Positions 27,877 through 39,641 of a stretch of 64,000 bases of DNA are shown here, piece after piece. The notes beneath the pieces are model-generated. The model saw nothing but the letters and a program-made list of their open reading frames with translations, was not told where the DNA came from and ran no database searches. Origin of the DNA: Tateyamaria omphalii (GTDB taxonomy: Bacteria; Pseudomonadota; Alphaproteobacteria; Rhodobacterales; Rhodobacteraceae); the NCBI RefSeq assembly GCF_014651375.1, contig NZ_BMWT01000003.1, positions 558,001-622,000 on the forward strand. The letters run 5' to 3'. The position numbers and the translations under genes are program-made. The first letter of the stretch is position 1. Each line of letters starts with the position of its first letter.

Positions 27877-29370
<1,494 letters not shown>

Positions 29371-29374
<4 letters not shown>

Positions 29375-30295: not shown

Positions 30296-31509
30296 TGGAC
30301 GGCTCCAAATTCGACGACGCTCTCACGGGCGAGCAGAAAATCCGCAACTTCAACATCAACTTCGGCCCGCAACACCCTGCGGCGCATGGGGTTCTGCGGC
30401 TTGTGCTGGAACTGGATGGTGAGATCGTGGAACGCTGCGACCCGCATATCGGCCTGCTGCACCGTGGCACCGAAAAGCTGATGGAGTCGCGGACCTACCT
30501 TCAAAACCTGCCCTATTTCGACCGGCTCGACTACGTGGCGCCTATGAACCAGGAACACGCCTGGTGCCTGGCCATCGAAAAGCTGACGGGCGTGGAAGTG
30601 CCCCGCCGCGCATCCCTGATCCGCGTGCTGTTTTGCGAGATTGGCCGCGTCCTGAACCACCTCCTGAACATCACCACCCAAGCGCTCGACGTGGGCGCGC
30701 TCACGCCGCCGCTTTGGGGCTTTGAAGAGCGTGAAGAACTGATGATCTTCTACGAAAGAGCGTGTGGCGCACGTCTGCACGCGGCTTATTTCCGGCCCGG
30801 CGGTGTCCATCAGGATCTGCCGCCCGAACTGCTCGATGATATCGAGCAATGGGCGCACAAGTTCATGTCGGGCTTCATGGTCGACATTGACGGGCTGTTG
30901 ACAGAAAACCGCATTTTCAAACAGCGCAACGCCGACATCGGTATCGTGACCGAAGACGATATCCTGAAATATGGCTTCTCGGGCGTCATGGTACGAGGCA
31001 GTGGGCTGGCTTGGGATCTGCGCCGGTCGCAACCCTATGAATGCTACGACGAGTTCGATTTCCAGATACCCGTGGGCAAGAACGGCGACTGCTATGACCG
31101 GTACCTCGTCCGCATGGAAGAAATGCGCCAGTCGGTGTCGATCATCAAGCAGGCCATTGCCAAATTGCGCGATTGCCCCGGTGACGTGTTGGCGCGCGGC
31201 AAGATCACACCACCGTCGCGCACCGACATGAAAACGTCGATGGAAGCGCTGATCCACCACTTCAAGCTCTACACTGAAGGGTTCCATGTGCCTGAAGGCG
31301 AGGTCTATTGTGCGGTTGAGGCCCCCAAGGGCGAGTTCGGCGTGTACCTTGTGGCCGACGGCACCAACAAACCCTACCGCTGCAAAATCCGTGCGCCTGG
31401 TTTCCTGCATTTGCAGGCGATGGACTATATCTCGAAAGGGCACCAACTGGCAGACGTGGCCGCGATCATTGGCACGATGGACGTGGTGTTCGGAGAGATC
31501 GACCGGTGA
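30292..31509 (+). CDS. nuoD: NADH-quinone oxidoreductase subunit D
   Basis: 405 residues from ATG 30292. The 49-kDa subunit that forms the quinone pocket with NuoB. Seen are [20 protein letters not shown] with the quinone-binding His in the loop, [31 protein letters not shown], and the C-terminal [20 protein letters not shown] with DVVFGEIDR as the last residues, all standard. Related to the large subunit of NiFe hydrogenases but without the metal cysteines. AGGAGAC lies 5-7 bases upstream of the start. The stop overlaps the GTG of the next gene. Confidence 0.97.
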
Positions 31510-31871
31510 AGATCGCAACTATTTTTCTGGCCTCAGTCCTTGCGTCGCCAATTCATGCTCAAGCTCCGGATCGATTGAAGGAACGCGTACGGTCTGTGGA
31601 TCAGGCTGCTGTACAGAAAACGTACTTGCAGGTTTTGCGCGATTTTGGCTGCCAGGTTGATAATTCGGATGTTTCAGAGCGGGTTGCACATGGGCGCTTG
31701 ATGGTGGACGAGGTGTTTGACTTGGCGAAAATACCGAAACGACATCGTGACAACCAAGACCTTCGCAATATCGCGTTGGAGCCCGTCGATGATGCCGTAT
31801 TCGCTTTGGAACGAGCAGGGCACCTCAAGTTCAATGGGGCAACTTCCGTGATTTCTGTCACGGAGTGTTAG
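31506..31871 (+). CDS. Unknown secreted protein between nuoD and nuoE
   Basis: 121 residues from a GTG overlapping the nuoD stop. A signal peptide ([18 protein letters not shown], cut after IHA) precedes a small, mostly helical, charged domain with two cysteines (DFGCQVDN and the C-terminal VTEC). GC is low: 92 of 180 bases in the three rows I counted (31561-31680 and 31741-31800). No family recognised. A 58-base gap then leads to nuoE, one of the few non-coupled junctions in the operon. Confidence 0.65.
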
Positions 31872-31929
31872 GCCACTCAAAGGTACTTACAATCCCGCGC
31901 CCGATATGGGGTGGATGAGGAAAAAGAAC

Positions 31930-33093
31930 ATGCTGCGCAGACTACATTCTGACCAACCTGATAGCTTCGCCTTTACACCAGACAACAAGGCGTGGGCCGA
32001 AGCACAGATCACCAAGTATCCCGATGGCCGTCAGGCATCGGCCATCATTCCGCTGCTCTGGCGTGCACAGGAACAAGAGGGTTGGTTGACCCGCCCGGCG
32101 ATCGAAACTGTCGCGGACATGCTTGACCTTGCCTATATCCGTGCGCTCGAAGTGGCTTCCTTCTACTTCATGTTCCAGCTGCAACCCGTTGGCTCTGTTG
32201 CACATATTCAGGTTTGCGGCACCACGTCTTGCATGATCTGTGGCGCCGAAGATCTTGTGGCCGTTTGTAAGGAAAAAATCGCCCCAAAAGCGCACCAGCT
32301 CTCTGCCGACGGCAAGTTCAGCTGGGAAGAAGTCGAATGTCTTGGCTCCTGCGCCAATGCGCCCATGGCGCAGATTGGCAAGGACTACTACGAGGACCTG
32401 ACCGCTGCTCGCATGGGTGAAATGATCGACGAATTGGCGAAGGGCGAGGTGCCGACCCCCGGCCCACAGAACGGTCGTTATGCGTCTGAACCTCTCGGCG
32501 GTCTGACCAGCCTCAAGGATTTCGATAGCGGGCACACCAAATATAATGCATCTGTCCAACTGGCGACGGATATTGGCGACACGGTTAAACGTATCGAGGG
32601 GACCGAAGTGCCGTTGCTCGCCCCATGGGGCAAGGCGAACGCGTCGGCAGATGCCAGTAACGCCAATGAAAAGCCTGCTGCCAAGGCTGTGAAAAAGACA
32701 CCTGCGAAGGCGGCAAAACCTAAGGCAAAGCCCAAAGCGGACGCCTCGGTAACCAAAAATAAATCTGATAAGAAACAATCAGATACGGCTGTCCCCGCGG
32801 GGACAAAACCGGCGCTGCTTTCAGAAGCCCGCGAAGGTGGGGCGGACGACCTGAAGCTGATCAAAGGTGTCGGACCGGGCCTTGAGAAAGAATTGAACGC
32901 GGCGGGCGTGTTTCATTTTGACCAGATTGCATCTTGGACTGCAGACGAAGTGGCCTGGGCCGATCAACACCTCGTGCGCTTCAAGGGACGGGTCAGCCGT
33001 GACAGCTGGGTCACGCAAGCACAGGCCCTCTCACGGGGAGAAGACACAGAATTTTCCCAACGCGCGAAAAAAGACGATATCTATAAGGAATAA
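31930..33093 (+). CDS. nuoE: NADH-quinone oxidoreductase subunit E with C-terminal helix-hairpin-helix extension
   Basis: 387 residues from ATG 31930 (GAGG 9 bases upstream). Residues 1-165 are the normal thioredoxin-like 24-kDa subunit with 2Fe-2S ligands Cys96, Cys101, Cys137 and Cys141 ([20 protein letters not shown]). The usual subunit is about 160-240 residues. Here an Ala/Lys-rich linker (about 225-285) and a 93-residue helix-hairpin-helix-like domain follow ([38 protein letters not shown]). The same domain ends the next gene product. Long NuoE proteins are known in Rhodobacter relatives. The extension's job is unknown; such folds usually contact nucleic acid or protein. Confidence 0.95.
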
Positions 33094-33119
33094 CATCCTT
33101 AAACGGGAGAGGTATCGTA

Positions 33120-33893
33120 ATGAACAAGAACGAGGGAATGATCAGCTGCGCCGTGGGTTGCTGGCTGGTCGCGCTGCTGGGCGGCGTTTTGGCAGCAATG
33201 CTACTAATGGTGCTGGGCGGTTGGACCTTTATGCAAGGCGTGTTTATGGGCGTCGTTGTGTTTGTGGTCGCCGGAGCGCTTCTCAGCTGGATTATTTGCA
33301 AGCCGTTGCCCGCAGCTGGCGAAGCGTCGATTGAGCAGGCCAAACCAGCCGATGCGGCAAAGCCCGCAGCGCAAGCGGCAGCTCCGGTTGCTGCAACATC
33401 GACAGCTGCAGCGGCAGAACCAGAGATAAAACCTTCGACCCCATTGCCGGGGGAGGCCGATCTGGCTGAGCGCAAGGGCGAATGGAAGTACGAGGCGGAG
33501 CCCAAGGCAAAGGAAAAGCCGAAGGCAAAGAAAGCTGCCAAAAAACCGGCTGCCAAGAAAGCCACCAAGTCAAAAGCTGAAACACCTGCCTCCGCTGCGG
33601 GCGAGGGAACCAAGCCCCAGACACTGTCCGCTGCGCGCGACGGTGGGCCTGACAATCTGAAAGAGATCAAAGGCGTTGGGCCGAAGCTGGAAGCGCTTTT
33701 GCACTCAATGGGCTTCTACCATTTCGATCAGGTTGCCAGCTGGGGTGCCGACGAGGTGGCTTGGGTCGATCAGAACCTGCAAGGCTTCAAGGGGCGTGTC
33801 AGCCGCGATGATTGGGTTTCGCAGGCCAAAATCCTTGCCGAAGGGGGCGAAACCGAGTTTTCCAAGAAAGTCGGTAAGGGCGACGTCTACTAA
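33120..33893 (+). CDS. Membrane protein with NuoE-like helix-hairpin-helix C-terminus
   Basis: 257 residues; GGGAGAG upstream of ATG 33120. Two transmembrane helices (about 8-32 and 38-60) are followed by a long Ala/Pro/Lys-rich tether (residues about 65-165, with repeated PKAKEKPKAKKAAKKPAAKK-type sequence) and a 93-residue terminal domain (LKEIKGVGPKLEALLHSMG, FDQVASWGADEVAWVDQNL). By my alignment 58 of 93 residues are identical to the NuoE tail, so the domain was duplicated between neighbours. The layout suggests a membrane-anchored partner holding the same contact surface as NuoE. Function unproven. Confidence 0.85.
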   Translation: MNKNEGMISCAVGCWLVALLGGVLAAMLLMVLGGWTFMQGVFMGVVVFVVAGALLSWIICKPLPAAGEASIEQAKPADAAKPAAQAAAPVAATSTAAAAEPEIKPSTPLPGEADLAERKGEWKYEAEPKAKEKPKAKKAAKKPAAKKATKSKAETPASAAGEGTKPQTLSAARDGGPDNLKEIKGVGPKLEALLHSMGFYHFDQVASWGADEVAWVDQNLQGFKGRVSRDDWVSQAKILAEGGETEFSKKVGKGDVY

Positions 33894-33896
33894 CGC

Positions 33897-34115
33897 ATGT
33901 CCGATCATCTTGATCCAAAACTGGCCCGGCAGGGCCGTATCGCGGCCCTTGTCATAGCAGGGGCCGCTTTGTTGTCGGTGTTCGCACCGGTGATTGTGCA
34001 GGGCTTTGGTTTGCCCGCGCGTTACGAAATTCTGATTTTGCTTTTTGCCTTGGCTGCGTTCATTTGGTCTCTGGTGGTTGCCATCAGGATTTGGCAAAAG
34101 AGCCGTGACAATTGA
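33897..34115 (+). CDS. DUF5337-type small membrane protein
   Basis: 72 residues, two transmembrane helices (LARQGRIAALVIAGAALLSV; ILILLFALAAFIWSLVVAIR) and short charged ends. I recall this family (DUF5337) as a Rhodobacteraceae protein encoded next to nuoF; naming is from memory. It starts 3 bases after the previous stop. An accessory or assembly role in complex I is possible from context only. Confidence 0.75.
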   Translation: MSDHLDPKLARQGRIAALVIAGAALLSVFAPVIVQGFGLPARYEILILLFALAAFIWSLVVAIRIWQKSRDN

Positions 34116-34154: not shown

Positions 34155-35435
34155 ATGCTGGCTGACAAGGATCGCATCTTTACCAATATCTACGGCATGC
34201 ATGATCGCACGCTGAAAGGTGCGCGGGCACGTGGGCATTGGGATGGCACGGACAAGCTGATCCAGAAGGGTCGTGATTGGATCGTGCAAGAGATGAAGGA
34301 CAGCGGCCTGCGCGGTCGTGGTGGTGCTGGTTTTCCCACCGGTCTGAAATGGTCCTTCATGCCCAAGGAAAGTGATGGTCGCCCCAGCTACCTTGTTGTA
34401 AACGCTGATGAATCCGAGCCGGGCACGTGCAAGGACCGCGAGATCATGCGCCATGATCCGCATACACTGGTCGAAGGGTGTTTGATTGCGTCCTTCGCGA
34501 TGAATGCAAACGCCTGCTACATTTACATCCGCGGCGAATACATCCGGGAAAAGGAAGCGCTGCAGGCGGCTATCGACGAAGCCTATGACGCCGGTCTGGT
34601 GGGCAAGAACGCCGCAGGCTCCGGTTGGGATTTCGACATTTACCTGCACCACGGGGCAGGGGCCTATATCTGCGGTGAGGAAACCGCACTGCTTGAATCG
34701 CTTGAAGGCAAGAAGGGCATGCCTCGCATGAAGCCGCCATTCCCGGCGGGCGCGGGTCTGTATGGCTGCCCGACCACGGTGAACAATGTTGAATCCATTG
34801 CGGTTGTTCCGACGATCCTGCGCCGTGGTGCGTCGTGGTTCTCTGGCTTTGGTCGTGCAAACAATGCCGGGACCAAGCTGTTCGCTATCTCGGGCCATGT
34901 GAACAACCCCTGTGTGGTCGAAGAGGCGATGTCCATCACCTTCGAAGAGTTGATCGAAAAGCATTGCGGCGGCATTCGCGGTGGCTGGGATAACCTCAAG
35001 GCCGTGATTCCTGGTGGGTCGTCTGTTCCCTGCGTGCGCGGGGAGAAGATGAAAGACGCCATTATGGACTTCGACTATCTGCGGAATGATCTGCAGTCGG
35101 GTCTGGGCACGGCGGCGGTGATCGTGATGGATCAGAGCACAGATATCATCAAGGCGATCTGGCGGTTGTCCAAGTTCTACAAGCATGAGTCTTGCGGTCA
35201 GTGCACGCCTTGTCGTGAAGGCACGGGCTGGATGATGCGCGTGATGGAGCGGCTGGTGTACGGCGAGGCGGATGTCGAGGAGATCGACATGCTGCTGGAC
35301 GTGACCAAGCAAGTTGAAGGCCATACGATTTGTGCGTTGGGTGATGCTGCCGCGTGGCCGATCCAGGGGCTGATCCGGAACTTCCGGGATGAGATCGAAG
35401 ATCGGATTGCAGGCAAGCGGATCGCGGCAGAGTGA
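34155..35435 (+). CDS. nuoF: NADH-quinone oxidoreductase subunit F (NADH-binding)
   Basis: 426 residues. Binds NADH and FMN at the tip of the peripheral arm and carries 4Fe-4S cluster N3. The FMN/NADH loop is [18 protein letters not shown], followed by [16 protein letters not shown] and [13 protein letters not shown]; the cluster cysteines are in [19 protein letters not shown], with the fourth in [18 protein letters not shown]. Length is standard. The stop overlaps the next ATG by one base (TGATG). Confidence 0.97.
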
Positions 35436-35836
35436 TGCTGCGCATACTGACCGTTTGCGTTGGGCTTGTCGCAGGGTCTTCCGCCGTTGCTTTGGAAATG
35501 AACTCCACCGAAAGAGCTATGGCTGGCCTGATGGTCGCGCGAATGCTGCAAAACGATTGTAAACCGGATGTCACTTGGGCAGGTCAATCCGGTGCGACAA
35601 CCTTCTACGCAAAGAACTTCAATGTTCTTGTCGCCGAAGGCCATTCGAAATCGGCGCTGCGGAAGTTTGAGCGACATAGGACGAAATGGTTGCAAGCCTC
35701 CATCGCTTGGATGGAAGACGCTGGTATCAAACTCGCAGGCCTATCCCGGGAACAGGTACGAGATGCAGGTTGCGATTGGGCGTCTTCAATCTCTGGGACC
35801 AATCACCCAGCCGGGCGGTTTCTTAAAAGCAAGTGA
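35435..35836 (+). CDS. Unknown secreted protein after nuoF
   Basis: 133 residues from ATG 35435, coupled to the nuoF stop. A signal peptide ([19 protein letters not shown]) is followed by a helical domain with two cysteines (LQNDCKPDVTW and RDAGCDWASS) and several tryptophans. The pair of cysteines separated by about 65 residues suggests a disulfide in the periplasm. No family recognised. One of eight exported products I find in this operon. Confidence 0.65.
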   Translation: MLRILTVCVGLVAGSSAVALEMNSTERAMAGLMVARMLQNDCKPDVTWAGQSGATTFYAKNFNVLVAEGHSKSALRKFERHRTKWLQASIAWMEDAGIKLAGLSREQVRDAGCDWASSISGTNHPAGRFLKSK

Positions 35837-35869: not shown

Positions 35870-36346
35870 ATGCACCTGGCTGAGTTCAACATCGGCACTC
35901 TGAAGTACGATTGGGAAGACCCGCGCGTTGCAGACTTTCTGAACAACCTCGATCGCGTCTATGACATCGCGCGTCGCTCGCCGGGTTATGTCTGGCATTT
36001 GGAAGGCGAGGAGATGGAGGCGGCACAGCTTGACCCCCATGGCCCGCTGGGTGGCAATCCACGCACGGCTAGTACGCTATCGGTTTGGAAAGACGTTGAA
36101 AGCCTGCGCAATTTCACCTTCAGCACCGTTCATAAGCAGTTCTATGACCGCAAAGGTGAATGGTACGATCCAGATCAGGGTTTGCGCTTTGTCATGTGGT
36201 GGGTGCCCGACGGGCACAAACCGACAGTCAAGGAAGCAATCGACCGCTTCCATCATCTTGAAAAGCATGGCAATACGGACATTGCCTTTGGCTGGGACTA
36301 CCCGGCACATCGAAGCGTTGACCCCGGGGGGAGGAGACTGCAGTGA
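35870..36346 (+). CDS. DUF3291 protein
   Basis: 158 residues. The start MHLAEFNIGTLKYDWEDPRVADF and the phrases RSPGYVWHLEGEE, TLSVWKDVESLRNFTF and RFVMWWVPDGHKPT are typical of DUF3291, a ferredoxin-like alpha/beta barrel family related to ABM-type monooxygenases and heme-degrading proteins. Activity is not established. No signal peptide, so cytoplasmic. Its GTG-coupled partner downstream is a lipoprotein. It is not known as a complex I component. Confidence 0.8.
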   Translation: MHLAEFNIGTLKYDWEDPRVADFLNNLDRVYDIARRSPGYVWHLEGEEMEAAQLDPHGPLGGNPRTASTLSVWKDVESLRNFTFSTVHKQFYDRKGEWYDPDQGLRFVMWWVPDGHKPTVKEAIDRFHHLEKHGNTDIAFGWDYPAHRSVDPGGRRLQ

Positions 36347-36717
36347 CCAAGACAAAGACCCGTGCACTGCCGGATATGCGGCCAGCATTTTTGACCTTTG
36401 TTTTGCTGATCGCGGTTTTGCTGCTGTCAGCCTGTCAGGAACGGCGTTCGGAACGCGTTGCCTTTGACGGCGTGTTTTTCCGGGCAAGCTCGGGCAAGGT
36501 TGATAAGCAGCGTGATCAGTTCGAGATCGGTGTGAGCCCTGTCTCTGCCTCTCTTGAAGGTGCGCGCGAAGCCGGGCGGTACGAGGCTGTGCGGTATTGC
36601 ATCAAGGAGTTCGGTTCATCGGATATCACGTGGATCGAAGGCCCGGATGCCGAGGATGGACGCCTGCGCATTTCAGGGGACAAGCTGCTGTTGCGGGGCA
36701 CCTGTACACCTGTGTAG
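36343..36717 (+). CDS. Predicted lipoprotein in the nuo operon
   Basis: 124 residues from a GTG overlapping the DUF3291 stop. A basic stretch and a hydrophobic helix (FLTFVLLIAVLLLSAC) end in the lipobox LSAC. The mature part is about 94 residues with a beta-rich pattern and a C-terminal pair YCIKEFG ... GTCTPV whose cysteines may bond. Conserved-looking segments include GVSPVSASLEGAREAGRYEA. Function unknown. It is followed by a 120-base gap with an inverted repeat before the next gene. Confidence 0.68.
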   Translation: MTKTKTRALPDMRPAFLTFVLLIAVLLLSACQERRSERVAFDGVFFRASSGKVDKQRDQFEIGVSPVSASLEGAREAGRYEAVRYCIKEFGSSDITWIEGPDAEDGRLRISGDKLLLRGTCTPV

Positions 36718-36762: not shown

Positions 36763-36840
36763 GTCGGCCCGTGTTATTGCATAGCACAGACCTGCTTTCC
36801 CACATGGCATCAAAGTGATGCAGCACGTGGAGAGAAAATG

Positions 36841-37239
36841 ATGCGCGCGATGACCATGGCCTTGATCCTTAGCCTGACTGCCGGGATAGCCTCGGCGAAG
36901 CCACACCTCCGGGATGTGCCCGAAATCGACGGTACGATTCTGGCCGTCGGAATTGCGGATGAAATCCGTAAGAATTGCCCGGATATTTCGGCCCGTCTGT
37001 TGCGGGCGTATTCGGTGGTCAACGGCTTGAAGGCACGGGCCCGCACTTTGGGCTACTCGGACGAAGAGATTGACGCATACCGCAAATCGGATACCGAAAA
37101 GGCGCGCCTCAAGGCCAAGCGCGCAGAGTATCTTCGAAGTGCGGGCGTGACCCCTGGCCAATCGGCAAGCTATTGTGCCGTCGGCCGGCAAGAGATTGAA
37201 AAAGGCGGCCAGATCGGCGCCCTACTGAGGATGAACTGA
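36841..37239 (+). CDS. DUF5333-type secreted protein
   Basis: 132 residues from ATG 36841 (GGAGAG 6 bases upstream); the ATG three bases earlier is too close to that site. A signal peptide (MRAMTMALILSLTAGIASA) precedes a helical domain with LRDVPEIDGTILAVGIADEI, NCPDISARLLRAYSVVNGLK, YSDEEIDAYRKSD and YCAVGRQEIEKG. I recall this as DUF5333, found beside nuoG in Rhodobacteraceae; the name is from memory. Two cysteines may bond. Function unknown. Three bases separate it from nuoG. Confidence 0.72.
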   Translation: MRAMTMALILSLTAGIASAKPHLRDVPEIDGTILAVGIADEIRKNCPDISARLLRAYSVVNGLKARARTLGYSDEEIDAYRKSDTEKARLKAKRAEYLRSAGVTPGQSASYCAVGRQEIEKGGQIGALLRMN

Positions 37240-37242
37240 CGC

Positions 37243-39264
37243 ATGAGCGACCTCCGCAAGATCATCATCGACGGTAACGAGATCGAGGTGGACGGGGCAA
37301 TGACCTTGATCCAGGCCTGTGAAGAGGCCGGGATCGAGATCCCGCGGTTCTGTTATCACGAGCGTCTGTCGATCGCAGGCAACTGCCGGATGTGTCTTGT
37401 GGAAGTTGTGGGTGGTCCACCCAAACCTGCCGCGTCTTGCGCGATGCAGGTGCGCGATTTGCGCCCCGGGCCCGAGGGGCAGCCACCGGTTGTGAAAACC
37501 AACTCGCCCATGGTCAAGAAGGCCCGCGAGGGGGTGATGGAGTTCCTGCTGATCAACCACCCGCTAGATTGCCCGATCTGCGATCAGGGCGGTGAGTGCG
37601 ACCTGCAGGATCAGGCCATGGCCTACGGTGTCGATTTCAGCCGCTTCCGCGAACCAAAGCGTGCGGTGGATGATCTGGATCTTGGTCCATTGGTCGAAAC
37701 ACATATGACCCGCTGCATTTCCTGCACCCGCTGCGTGCGCTTCACGACCGAGGTCGCTGGCATCACTCAGATGGGGCAGACGGGTCGCGGCGAGGATGCT
37801 GAGATTACCAGCTATCTGGGCGAGACACTGGATTCGAACTTGCAGGGCAACATCATCGACCTGTGCCCGGTGGGCGCGTTGGTGTCGAAGCCATATGCCT
37901 TTACGGCCCGTCCGTGGGAACTGACCAAGACCGAGAGCATCGATGTGATGGATGCACTTGGGTCCTCCATCCGCGTGGACACCAAGGGGCGCGAAGTCAT
38001 GCGGTTCCTGCCGCTGAACCACGATGGCACGAATGAAGAGTGGATTGCGGACAAGACGCGTTTCGTCTGGGATGGTTTGCGCCGTCAGCGTCTGGACAAA
38101 CCTTATGTTCGTGAGAACGGCAAACTGCGCCCCGCAACGTGGGGGGAGGCCTTGGGCAAAGCCGCCGAGGCCATTAAGGGGGCATCATCCTTGGCCGGTC
38201 TGGTCGGTGATCTGGCGCCGGTCGAAGCCGCTTACGCTTTGAAAGAGTTGATTGAAGGGCAGGGTGGGTTTGTCGAGTGCCGCACCGACGGCGCCAAGCT
38301 GCCCTCGGGCAACCGGGCTGCATATGTTGGCACCGCGGCGATTGAGGATATCGATAGTGCAGAAGCCATCATGCTGATCGGTACCAACCCGCGTCTGGAA
38401 GCGCCTGTGTTGAACGCGCGTATCCGCAAGGCCTGGGCACGTGGGGCCAGTGTGGGTGTGATCGGTGAGATGCCGGACCTGACCTACGAGGCCAACCACA
38501 TTGGGACAGAGGCGACCGTCATTAACGATCTTCTGAAGCGTGACCATTCAGGGGTGCAGGAAAAGCCGTCGATCATCATTGTCGGCATGGGCGCGTTGAC
38601 CCGTGGGGACGGCGCGGTAATTCTTGCCGGGGCGCAGGCGCTGGCGGAAAGCACCAAGTCGGGCCTGATGATCCTGCATACAGCCGCGGGCCGCGTGGGT
38701 GCGATGGATGTTGGTGCCACAAACCCGGATGCAATGGCAGCCGTTGAGAAAGCGGATGTCATCTACAACCTGGGCGCCGATGAAATCGAAATCGGTGAAG
38801 GGGCCTTTGTGATCTATCAGGGCAGCCACGGTGATCGTGGAGCGCACAGGGCAGATGTGATCCTGCCGGGGGCGGCCTACACAGAAGAAGGCGGCCTGTT
38901 CGTCAACACCGAAGGGCGGCCACAACTGACGCAACGCGCTGGTTTTGCACCGGGTGAAGCCAAGGAAAACTGGGCCATCCTGCGTGCTTTGTCGGGTGAG
39001 ATCAGCGCGGCCTTGCCCTATGACAGCCTTGCTGCTCTACGTCAGAAACTGGTGGGTGACCATCCGCACCTCGGCGATGTCGATGTGGTGGCTGAGAACT
39101 CCGGTGATGCTCTTGAGGCGGGTGAGATCGAAGGTGGCGTGCTGACCTCGACCATTAGCGATTTCTACCTGACCAACCCGATTGCCCGTGCCAGCCAGTT
39201 GATGGCGGAACTGAGCGCCAACGCGAAGGCCCGTAAATCCCAAGAGGTACTGGCAGCAGAATGA
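37243..39264 (+). CDS. nuoG: NADH-quinone oxidoreductase subunit G
   Basis: 673 residues, the shorter form common in alphaproteobacteria and mitochondria. It carries the N1b 2Fe-2S cluster ([20 protein letters not shown] with a preceding Cys further on) and two 4Fe-4S clusters ([19 protein letters not shown] with its histidine region; [12 protein letters not shown] and [13 protein letters not shown]). The C-terminal half is a molybdopterin-oxidoreductase-like fold without cofactor. It forms the large peripheral-arm subunit. The stop overlaps the next ATG by four bases. Confidence 0.96.
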
Positions 39265-39641
39265 TTGTTCGCAGCATAATCAAGGTTGTTGCACTTGGCG
39301 CTGTGGTGACCCTGTCTGCCTGCGCGTCGCAGGTGTTGGACGGCTATGTTGGCAAGTCCATCACAGAGCCGATGCTAGATTATGGTCAACCGGCCGCGGT
39401 TTTTGACCTTCCTGACGGGCGTCGTGCCTTTCAGTGGTCGATCAGTTCTTGGGGCTCTGTTCCGATTGTCAGCACCGAAAGACAAACGTCTGATGGGCTT
39501 CACGATTGGGCGGATGTGACAAAAACACGGACCATCAGCATTCCGGTGGAAGAAACGTGCCTGTACACGCTCTACGGCGTTCCGCGTGGCAACGATTGGA
39601 TCGTCACCGGGTACCGGCAGCCGTCGTTCGAGTGCGAATGA
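39261..39641 (+). CDS. Predicted lipoprotein after nuoG (first of a pair)
   Basis: 126 residues, ATGA overlap with nuoG. Signal peptide [16 protein letters not shown] with lipobox LSAC at about residue 21. The mature part has the layout of small outer-membrane lipoproteins with an SmpA/OmlA-like look ([36 protein letters not shown]), in which a short repeat links sequence variability to assembly of other proteins; that resemblance is weak. Two cysteines near the end ([14 protein letters not shown]). Directly coupled to a second lipoprotein gene. Confidence 0.7.

Follow-up and report, generated by a model that had tools for sequence, protein, structure and literature searches.

Why should a subunit of respiratory complex I and the membrane protein encoded next to it end in the same domain? 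The sequence analysed here is a 64,000-nt window of Tateyamaria omphalii DNA (NZ_BMWT01000003.1); gene positions are numbered within this window, and the nuoE, O, DUF5337 and nuoF features described below all lie on the + strand. An initial annotation had described the last 93 residues of NuoE (32806..33084) and of the next gene product (33612..33890) as one shared domain. Both stretches are indeed in frame and align without gaps, with 58/93 residues identical, and a BLASTP comparison of the two whole proteins gives 61/100 identical residues (E 2e-39). The core of this observation is already in print for another species, Dinoroseobacter shibae (PMC12079452).

The nuoE gene (31930..33093) encodes the 24 kDa-type subunit of complex I in a long, tailed form, which matches NCBIfam NF009040 (PRK12373) over its full length (597.5 bits; cut-off 514). 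Counted in the longest ORF, the profile begins at residue 9, which is base 31930, in agreement with the start placed by the initial annotation. The thioredoxin-like [2Fe-2S] core (31999..32436; residues 32-177 of the ORF starting at 31906) is normal and scores 172.4 bits with Pfam PF01257 (cut-off 24.8). The next gene (33120..33893) encodes a protein of 257 aa; in its AlphaFold2 model, two membrane helices are followed by a linker, most of it modelled at low confidence, and by a folded tail domain (mean pLDDT 94.2); the helix hairpin comprises residues 3-59 (33126..33296) by model and alignment. The model thus bears out the earlier description of a two-helix anchor, a tether and a tail. The tether had also been called Ala/Lys-rich, which is true of this genome but does not extend to its relatives, since the net charge of the O linker ranges from -35 to +35 over 85 of them.

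Among solved structures, the best match of this neighbour is chain O of 8YY9, the RC-LH1 complex of D. shibae (phmmer E 1.3e-63, over the stretches 8-126 and 159-257). Further O-like chains are found in 9WQV (E 2.5e-39) and in 9LTS ('Protein LRC', E 3.2e-8), and a reaction-centre M chain is present in all three entries. Since the chain of 9LTS agrees with the D. shibae stretch, it may come from the same species as 8YY9. A chain name suggested that 9WQV might be a complex I structure; this was rejected because the entry holds the M chain, and among the 56 matches of NuoE it appears with its O-like chain only. By sequence similarity, then, the neighbour is a homologue of D. shibae protein-O, an RC-LH1 subunit, an identity that the initial annotation did not give.

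According to the D. shibae report, protein-O is positioned between RC and LH1, its hairpin is closed by a Cys10-Cys59 disulfide, its tail resembles that of NuoE, and nuoE and nuoF lie on either side of its gene (PMC12079452). A role as RC-LH1 assembly factor has been proposed for it; the report leaves open both its function and its origin (whether it was always there or was recruited). The same report describes protein-U/Y of Rhodobacter sphaeroides RC-LH1 as another helix hairpin in the same gap, with a sequence quite distinct from that of protein-O (PMC12079452). The D. shibae protein (GenBank ABV93056.1) and the one in our window share the hairpin, the Cys pair, the long linker, the NuoE-like tail and the location of the gene between nuoE and nuoF. 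In the latter, Cys10 lies inside the hairpin and Cys60 just past it; they align with the D. shibae pair and may likewise form a disulfide. The association with RC-LH1 was seen in D. shibae, a different species, and is a possibility for the window's O; in both cases, the genome contains reaction-centre genes (here two PF00124 matches, on contig C9). In a literature search covering few subscription journals, neither the NuoE tail nor the domain was treated in any of the matches listed, and PMC12079452 was the only one of them on protein-O.

Contig C9 (116,703 bp) carries the reaction-centre genes together with ORFs that resemble ParA, ParB and RepC by eye, and is probably a plasmid. A further copy of nuoF lies there too (84% identity over 147 aa), and it was the only nuo gene noticed in that locus (L182). 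In the window itself, O is adjoined by a gene for a small DUF5337 membrane protein (33897..34115; Pfam PF17272, 75.5 bits against a cut-off of 27), which separates it from nuoF (34155..35435); similar ORFs were recognized by eye in about 30 of 51 loci that have no tailed O. Small ORFs are interleaved with the nuo genes at 28769-29374, 31506-31871, 35432-35836, 36343-36717 and 39261-39641, and give no Pfam match at E 0.01. The interval from nuoF to the following nuo gene, presumably nuoG, encodes a DUF3291 protein (35870-36346) and a DUF5333 protein (36838-37239).

Is O, then, a photosynthesis protein that happens to sit among nuo genes? We surveyed 149 genomes of the window's family, one per genus, with PF00124 as a proxy for phototrophy; it is present in 61 of them, the window's genome included. 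The downstream gene nuoF served as the anchor, its first 148 aa being matched in 148/149 genomes at E <=1e-20. Loci upstream of nuoF were obtained from 144 genomes; the other five were the window's own genome, which was read in the window, and G032, G119, G122 and G124, which had no good NuoF match. Five of the 144 loci (G133, G147, G028, G022 and G144) end before NuoE and were excluded, so that 139 were readable through NuoE. A tail was counted at 30 bits or more.

A tailed O with a predicted membrane helix is present in 46/84 genomes without PF00124 and in 42/55 with it (p 0.012, kinship ignored); for any tailed ORF between nuoE and nuoF, the corresponding numbers are 46/84 and 43/55 (p 0.0065, kinship ignored). 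When 12 short, tail-less O forms are added, all assigned by eye except that of G057, which was assigned by a linker-motif match, the counts become 57/84 and 43/55 (p 0.25, kinship ignored). Four single-contig genomes (G003, G055, G093 and G141) contain O and are not among the 61 with PF00124. Likewise, 12 of 24 named O carriers (the 24 being our own choice from 79 loci) are without PF00124, including Pelagimonas phthalicica, Pseudohalocynthiibacter aestuariivivens, Yoonia ponticola and Roseovarius halotolerans; Roseovarius tolerans, a phototroph, carries O and has PF00124. Given that O with its tail is found in so many genomes without reaction-centre genes, and that half of these named carriers lack them, we conclude that O is a gene of the complex I operon and not one of photosynthesis only. 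Since many non-photosynthetic relatives keep the NuoE-O pair, O probably also has a job beyond photosynthesis.

The membrane part of O is equally variable in both groups, with a mean identity of 0.230 in phototrophs (43 rows) and 0.227 in non-phototrophs (45 rows). The Cys pair, judged near the predicted helices, is commoner in genomes without photosynthesis genes (36/46 versus 21/42, p 0.007, kinship ignored). Hence, neither the gene nor its Cys pair gives the impression of being adapted to RC-LH1. That O is common in genomes without reaction-centre genes is new here and answers the question of its origin in part. The place to look for O's function is now respiration, in preference to photosynthesis, along with a possible connection of the two.

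Are the two tails always found together? Among the 139 loci, NuoE is tailed in 111, and in 34 of these there is no tailed O beside it. Conversely, 11 of 88 tailed O proteins accompany a NuoE in which the profile detects no tail; seven of these NuoE frames are short (232-271 aa), and the other four (G023, G104, G107 and G125) are long (372-428 aa) and may contain a diverged tail. Given that each tail occurs without the other, and that neither is present in 17/139 loci, the module is dispensable. The NuoE tail and a tailed neighbour nevertheless co-occur above chance before tree correction (78 loci with both, 33 with the former only, 11 with the latter only and 17 with neither; Fisher p 0.0037). 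A quick nuo tree of 137 rows (G098 and G102 absent) implies 31 changes of O and 19 of the NuoE tail, and tree-aware pairs are few. A tailed ORF without membrane helices, phasin-like by eye, occurs in the nuo operon of at most 11 relatives (for example in loci L096, L070, L112 and L119); the class of third ORFs comprises 12 rows, one of which (G050) is an O with one predicted helix. A Pfam search with one of these phasin-like ORFs named no family.

As to the domain itself, the AlphaFold2 model of the tail is a compact six-helix domain, and the nearest solved folds are the N-terminal domain of RadA (Z 7.1) and the AR2 domain of NusA (Z 6.4), the latter bound to SuhB in 6ib8. The predicted fold thus bears a weak resemblance to NusA AR2 and the RadA/Rad51 N-terminal HhH domain, the helix arrangement having been compared by model. 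A Foldseek search of the predicted fold against solved structures gave no significant match (best E 0.3), the tail has no sequence match to NusA AR2 or RadA among solved structures, and Pfam HHH_5 (PF14520) scores 15.6 and 14.8 bits, below its gathering cut-off of 27. The helix-hairpin-helix assignment of the initial annotation is therefore retained as a predicted type of fold, suggested by weak structure matches, and not as membership of that Pfam family.

The domain is not confined to the NuoE-O pair. The window's genome holds three copies, on NuoE, on O and on ribosomal protein L21, where it is C-terminal and follows a low-complexity linker. NCBIfam models of L21, S2 and the phasin PhaH (NF008915, NF008916, NF008966 and NF045508) match both tails. 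The similarity is lower than between NuoE and O, as L21 tails are about 47% identical to those of NuoE and O, and the ones compared stop short of the last residues that NuoE and O share. Over the class, the domain was found in 19/190 genomes sampled; in the 30 loci that were read, its carriers are NuoE, L21 and proteins that are membrane-anchored or coiled-coil-like, and it mostly sits at the C-terminus or close to it. Membrane proteins from another family of the class (loci L194 and L190) carry it twice in tandem.

NuoE tails (112 rows) and O tails (89 rows) have almost identical consensus sequences. For a tail tree of 75 rows, 33 of the 77 two-tailed genomes were used (the window and 32 taken at random, with long tails), together with G170 and seven outgroup rows. 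In this tree the O tails do not form one clade: well-supported branches require at least seven label changes, and a constraint of O monophyly is rejected with a p-AU of 1.5e-68, a value obtained from few columns and with a bootstrap that had not settled. The NuoE and O labels are weakly clustered (20 changes versus 25 in shuffles). Supported sister pairs of NuoE and O from the same genome are found in G003, G103, G108 and G170; the L21 tail from the genome of the window falls in one group with the two tails of G170. Over all 77 two-tailed genomes, the NuoE and O tails of the same genome are 0.655 identical versus 0.613 when permuted (0/2000 permutations), and this excess persists when six genomes of high DNA identity are removed (0/5000). 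We conclude that the NuoE and O tails evolve in concert.

No same-genome excess was seen in controls with L21 (NuoE-L21, 792/2000, n=21; O-L21, 347/2000, n=14) or with the tailed third ORF (NuoE, 1492/5000, n=11; O, 1356/5000, n=10). In the L21 set, 23 of the 30 loci gave a 'tail', of which one (G119) is spurious and was kept out of the pairs. These controls are weaker than they look, given that conversion needs similar DNA and these tails are 47-50% identical. The distances among the tails show a partial correlation of 0.207 (permutation p 0.009); the NuoE core is a weak control for it, as these distances hardly follow those of the core (r -0.03 and 0.08). In G103, the two tails are 98% identical in DNA, and identical residues share their codon in 97% of cases, against 60% expected. 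The tract is about 300 bases long, takes in the domain with some ten codons ahead of it, fades at the stop codons and represents a recent gene conversion. Across the 77 pairs as a whole, codon sharing exceeds expectation slightly (0.555 versus 0.529 expected, and above expectation in 47/77), and most of the likeness between the tails therefore resides at the protein level; the window's own pair, at 62% identity, is old. Outside the family, tailed NuoE was found in four genomes (G205, G330, G332 and G336) with no second tail within 20 kb, so that the NuoE tail is probably older than the O tail.

What might the two tails do? Our main reading, to which we give a probability of roughly 0.4, is that they are two tethered copies of one docking module for a common, putative cytoplasmic protein partner, by which complex I and O-containing complexes would be gathered. 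Each tail would be a small protein-docking domain, of the NusA acidic-repeat or RadA N-terminal sort by its predicted fold, on a long flexible tether that in this strain presumably lies at the cytoplasmic face of the membrane. O, encoded in the complex I operon, would serve as an accessory membrane protein, and its hairpin could slot into membrane complexes, in the D. shibae case by filling the gap of the RC-LH1 ring. With both tails binding the same partner, which would be a protein and not a nucleic acid, complex I and the O-carrying complexes would be loosely brought together. A more far-reaching form of this idea is that the matched tethered domains hold complex I and the reaction centre together, directly or through one hub, with another membrane complex in the reaction centre's place in relatives that lack photosynthesis, and that the L21, S2 and phasin tails use the same hub; we regard this as rather doubtful. 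The concrete question raised is what the tails of NuoE and O bind to.

Counting against a common partner are the occurrence of each tail without the other, the dispensability of the module, the weakness of the fold matches and the fact that conversion between neighbouring genes could make the tails alike without any joint function. The domain would then be an old mobile end domain whose likeness in NuoE and O is kept by conversion alone, as the G103 tract, the scattered O tails and the frequent gains and losses would allow. However, 12/95 columns do not vary at all across 18 diverse tails, an L21 tail among them (27/95 over 51 tails picked for similarity), which speaks for selection on the sequence; Gln42, Trp46, Arg64, Arg67, Trp70 and Gln73 are among the conserved residues in the numbering of that alignment (A1). 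In addition, the same-genome excess outlasts the removal of the six genomes of high DNA identity; conversion as the whole explanation appears unlikely. It is likewise improbable that the tails bind each other or self-associate, with O bridging complex I to RC-LH1 in phototrophs or to another complex. Such binding would fit the likeness of the two tails within a genome, the partial correlation, weak as its control is, and the co-occurrence before tree correction, but not the tailed NuoE proteins without a tailed O, the O proteins without a detected NuoE tail, or the four genomes from outside the family, in which NuoE is tailed and no second tail lies within 20 kb. A strict handshake between NuoE and O is, on the first two of these counts, less likely than a common partner, and obligate pairing is not supported. 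The local duplication with joint function proposed in the initial annotation is thus partly supported: one domain in two copies and a specific tie between them, their concerted evolution, speak for it, and the presence of the domain outside the pair, at lower similarity, speaks against it.

Many HhH domains bind RNA or DNA, and nucleic acid had been named as a possible contact of the tails. Anchoring of the complexes to nucleoid or ribosome would agree with the weak HhH-type fold matches and with the domain's presence on L21 and in the models of S2 and a phasin. Nevertheless, the mean net charge of the tails is -0.2 to -0.9 with no conserved positive charge, and the O linkers vary widely, being below -5 in 33/85 and above +5 in 15/85; this disfavours nucleic-acid binding, which we consider quite unlikely. 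Least probable, in our judgement, is that O is a plain RC-LH1 assembly factor of phototrophs and its place in the nuo operon accidental. The D. shibae RC-LH1 structure (PMC12079452) and the somewhat greater frequency of tailed O in phototrophs argue for it; against it are the 46 tailed O genes in genomes without PF00124 and an enrichment that loses significance with the short forms included.

A minor feature of the O linker is the motif KPSxxLxGExxLAxRKGxWxY (33426..33497), which was matched in the search of 149 genomes and forms a short helix in the model. Its profile is positive in 25 O and 8 NuoE proteins among the 139 loci. The idea that the motif sits in NuoE mainly where O is missing (5/34 versus 2/77, p 0.027) was dropped, because short tail-less O forms with the motif were found in several of those genomes. 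Besides some NuoE proteins and short O forms, it also occurs near the start of one ABC-transporter ATPase (G035, L324; named by eye).
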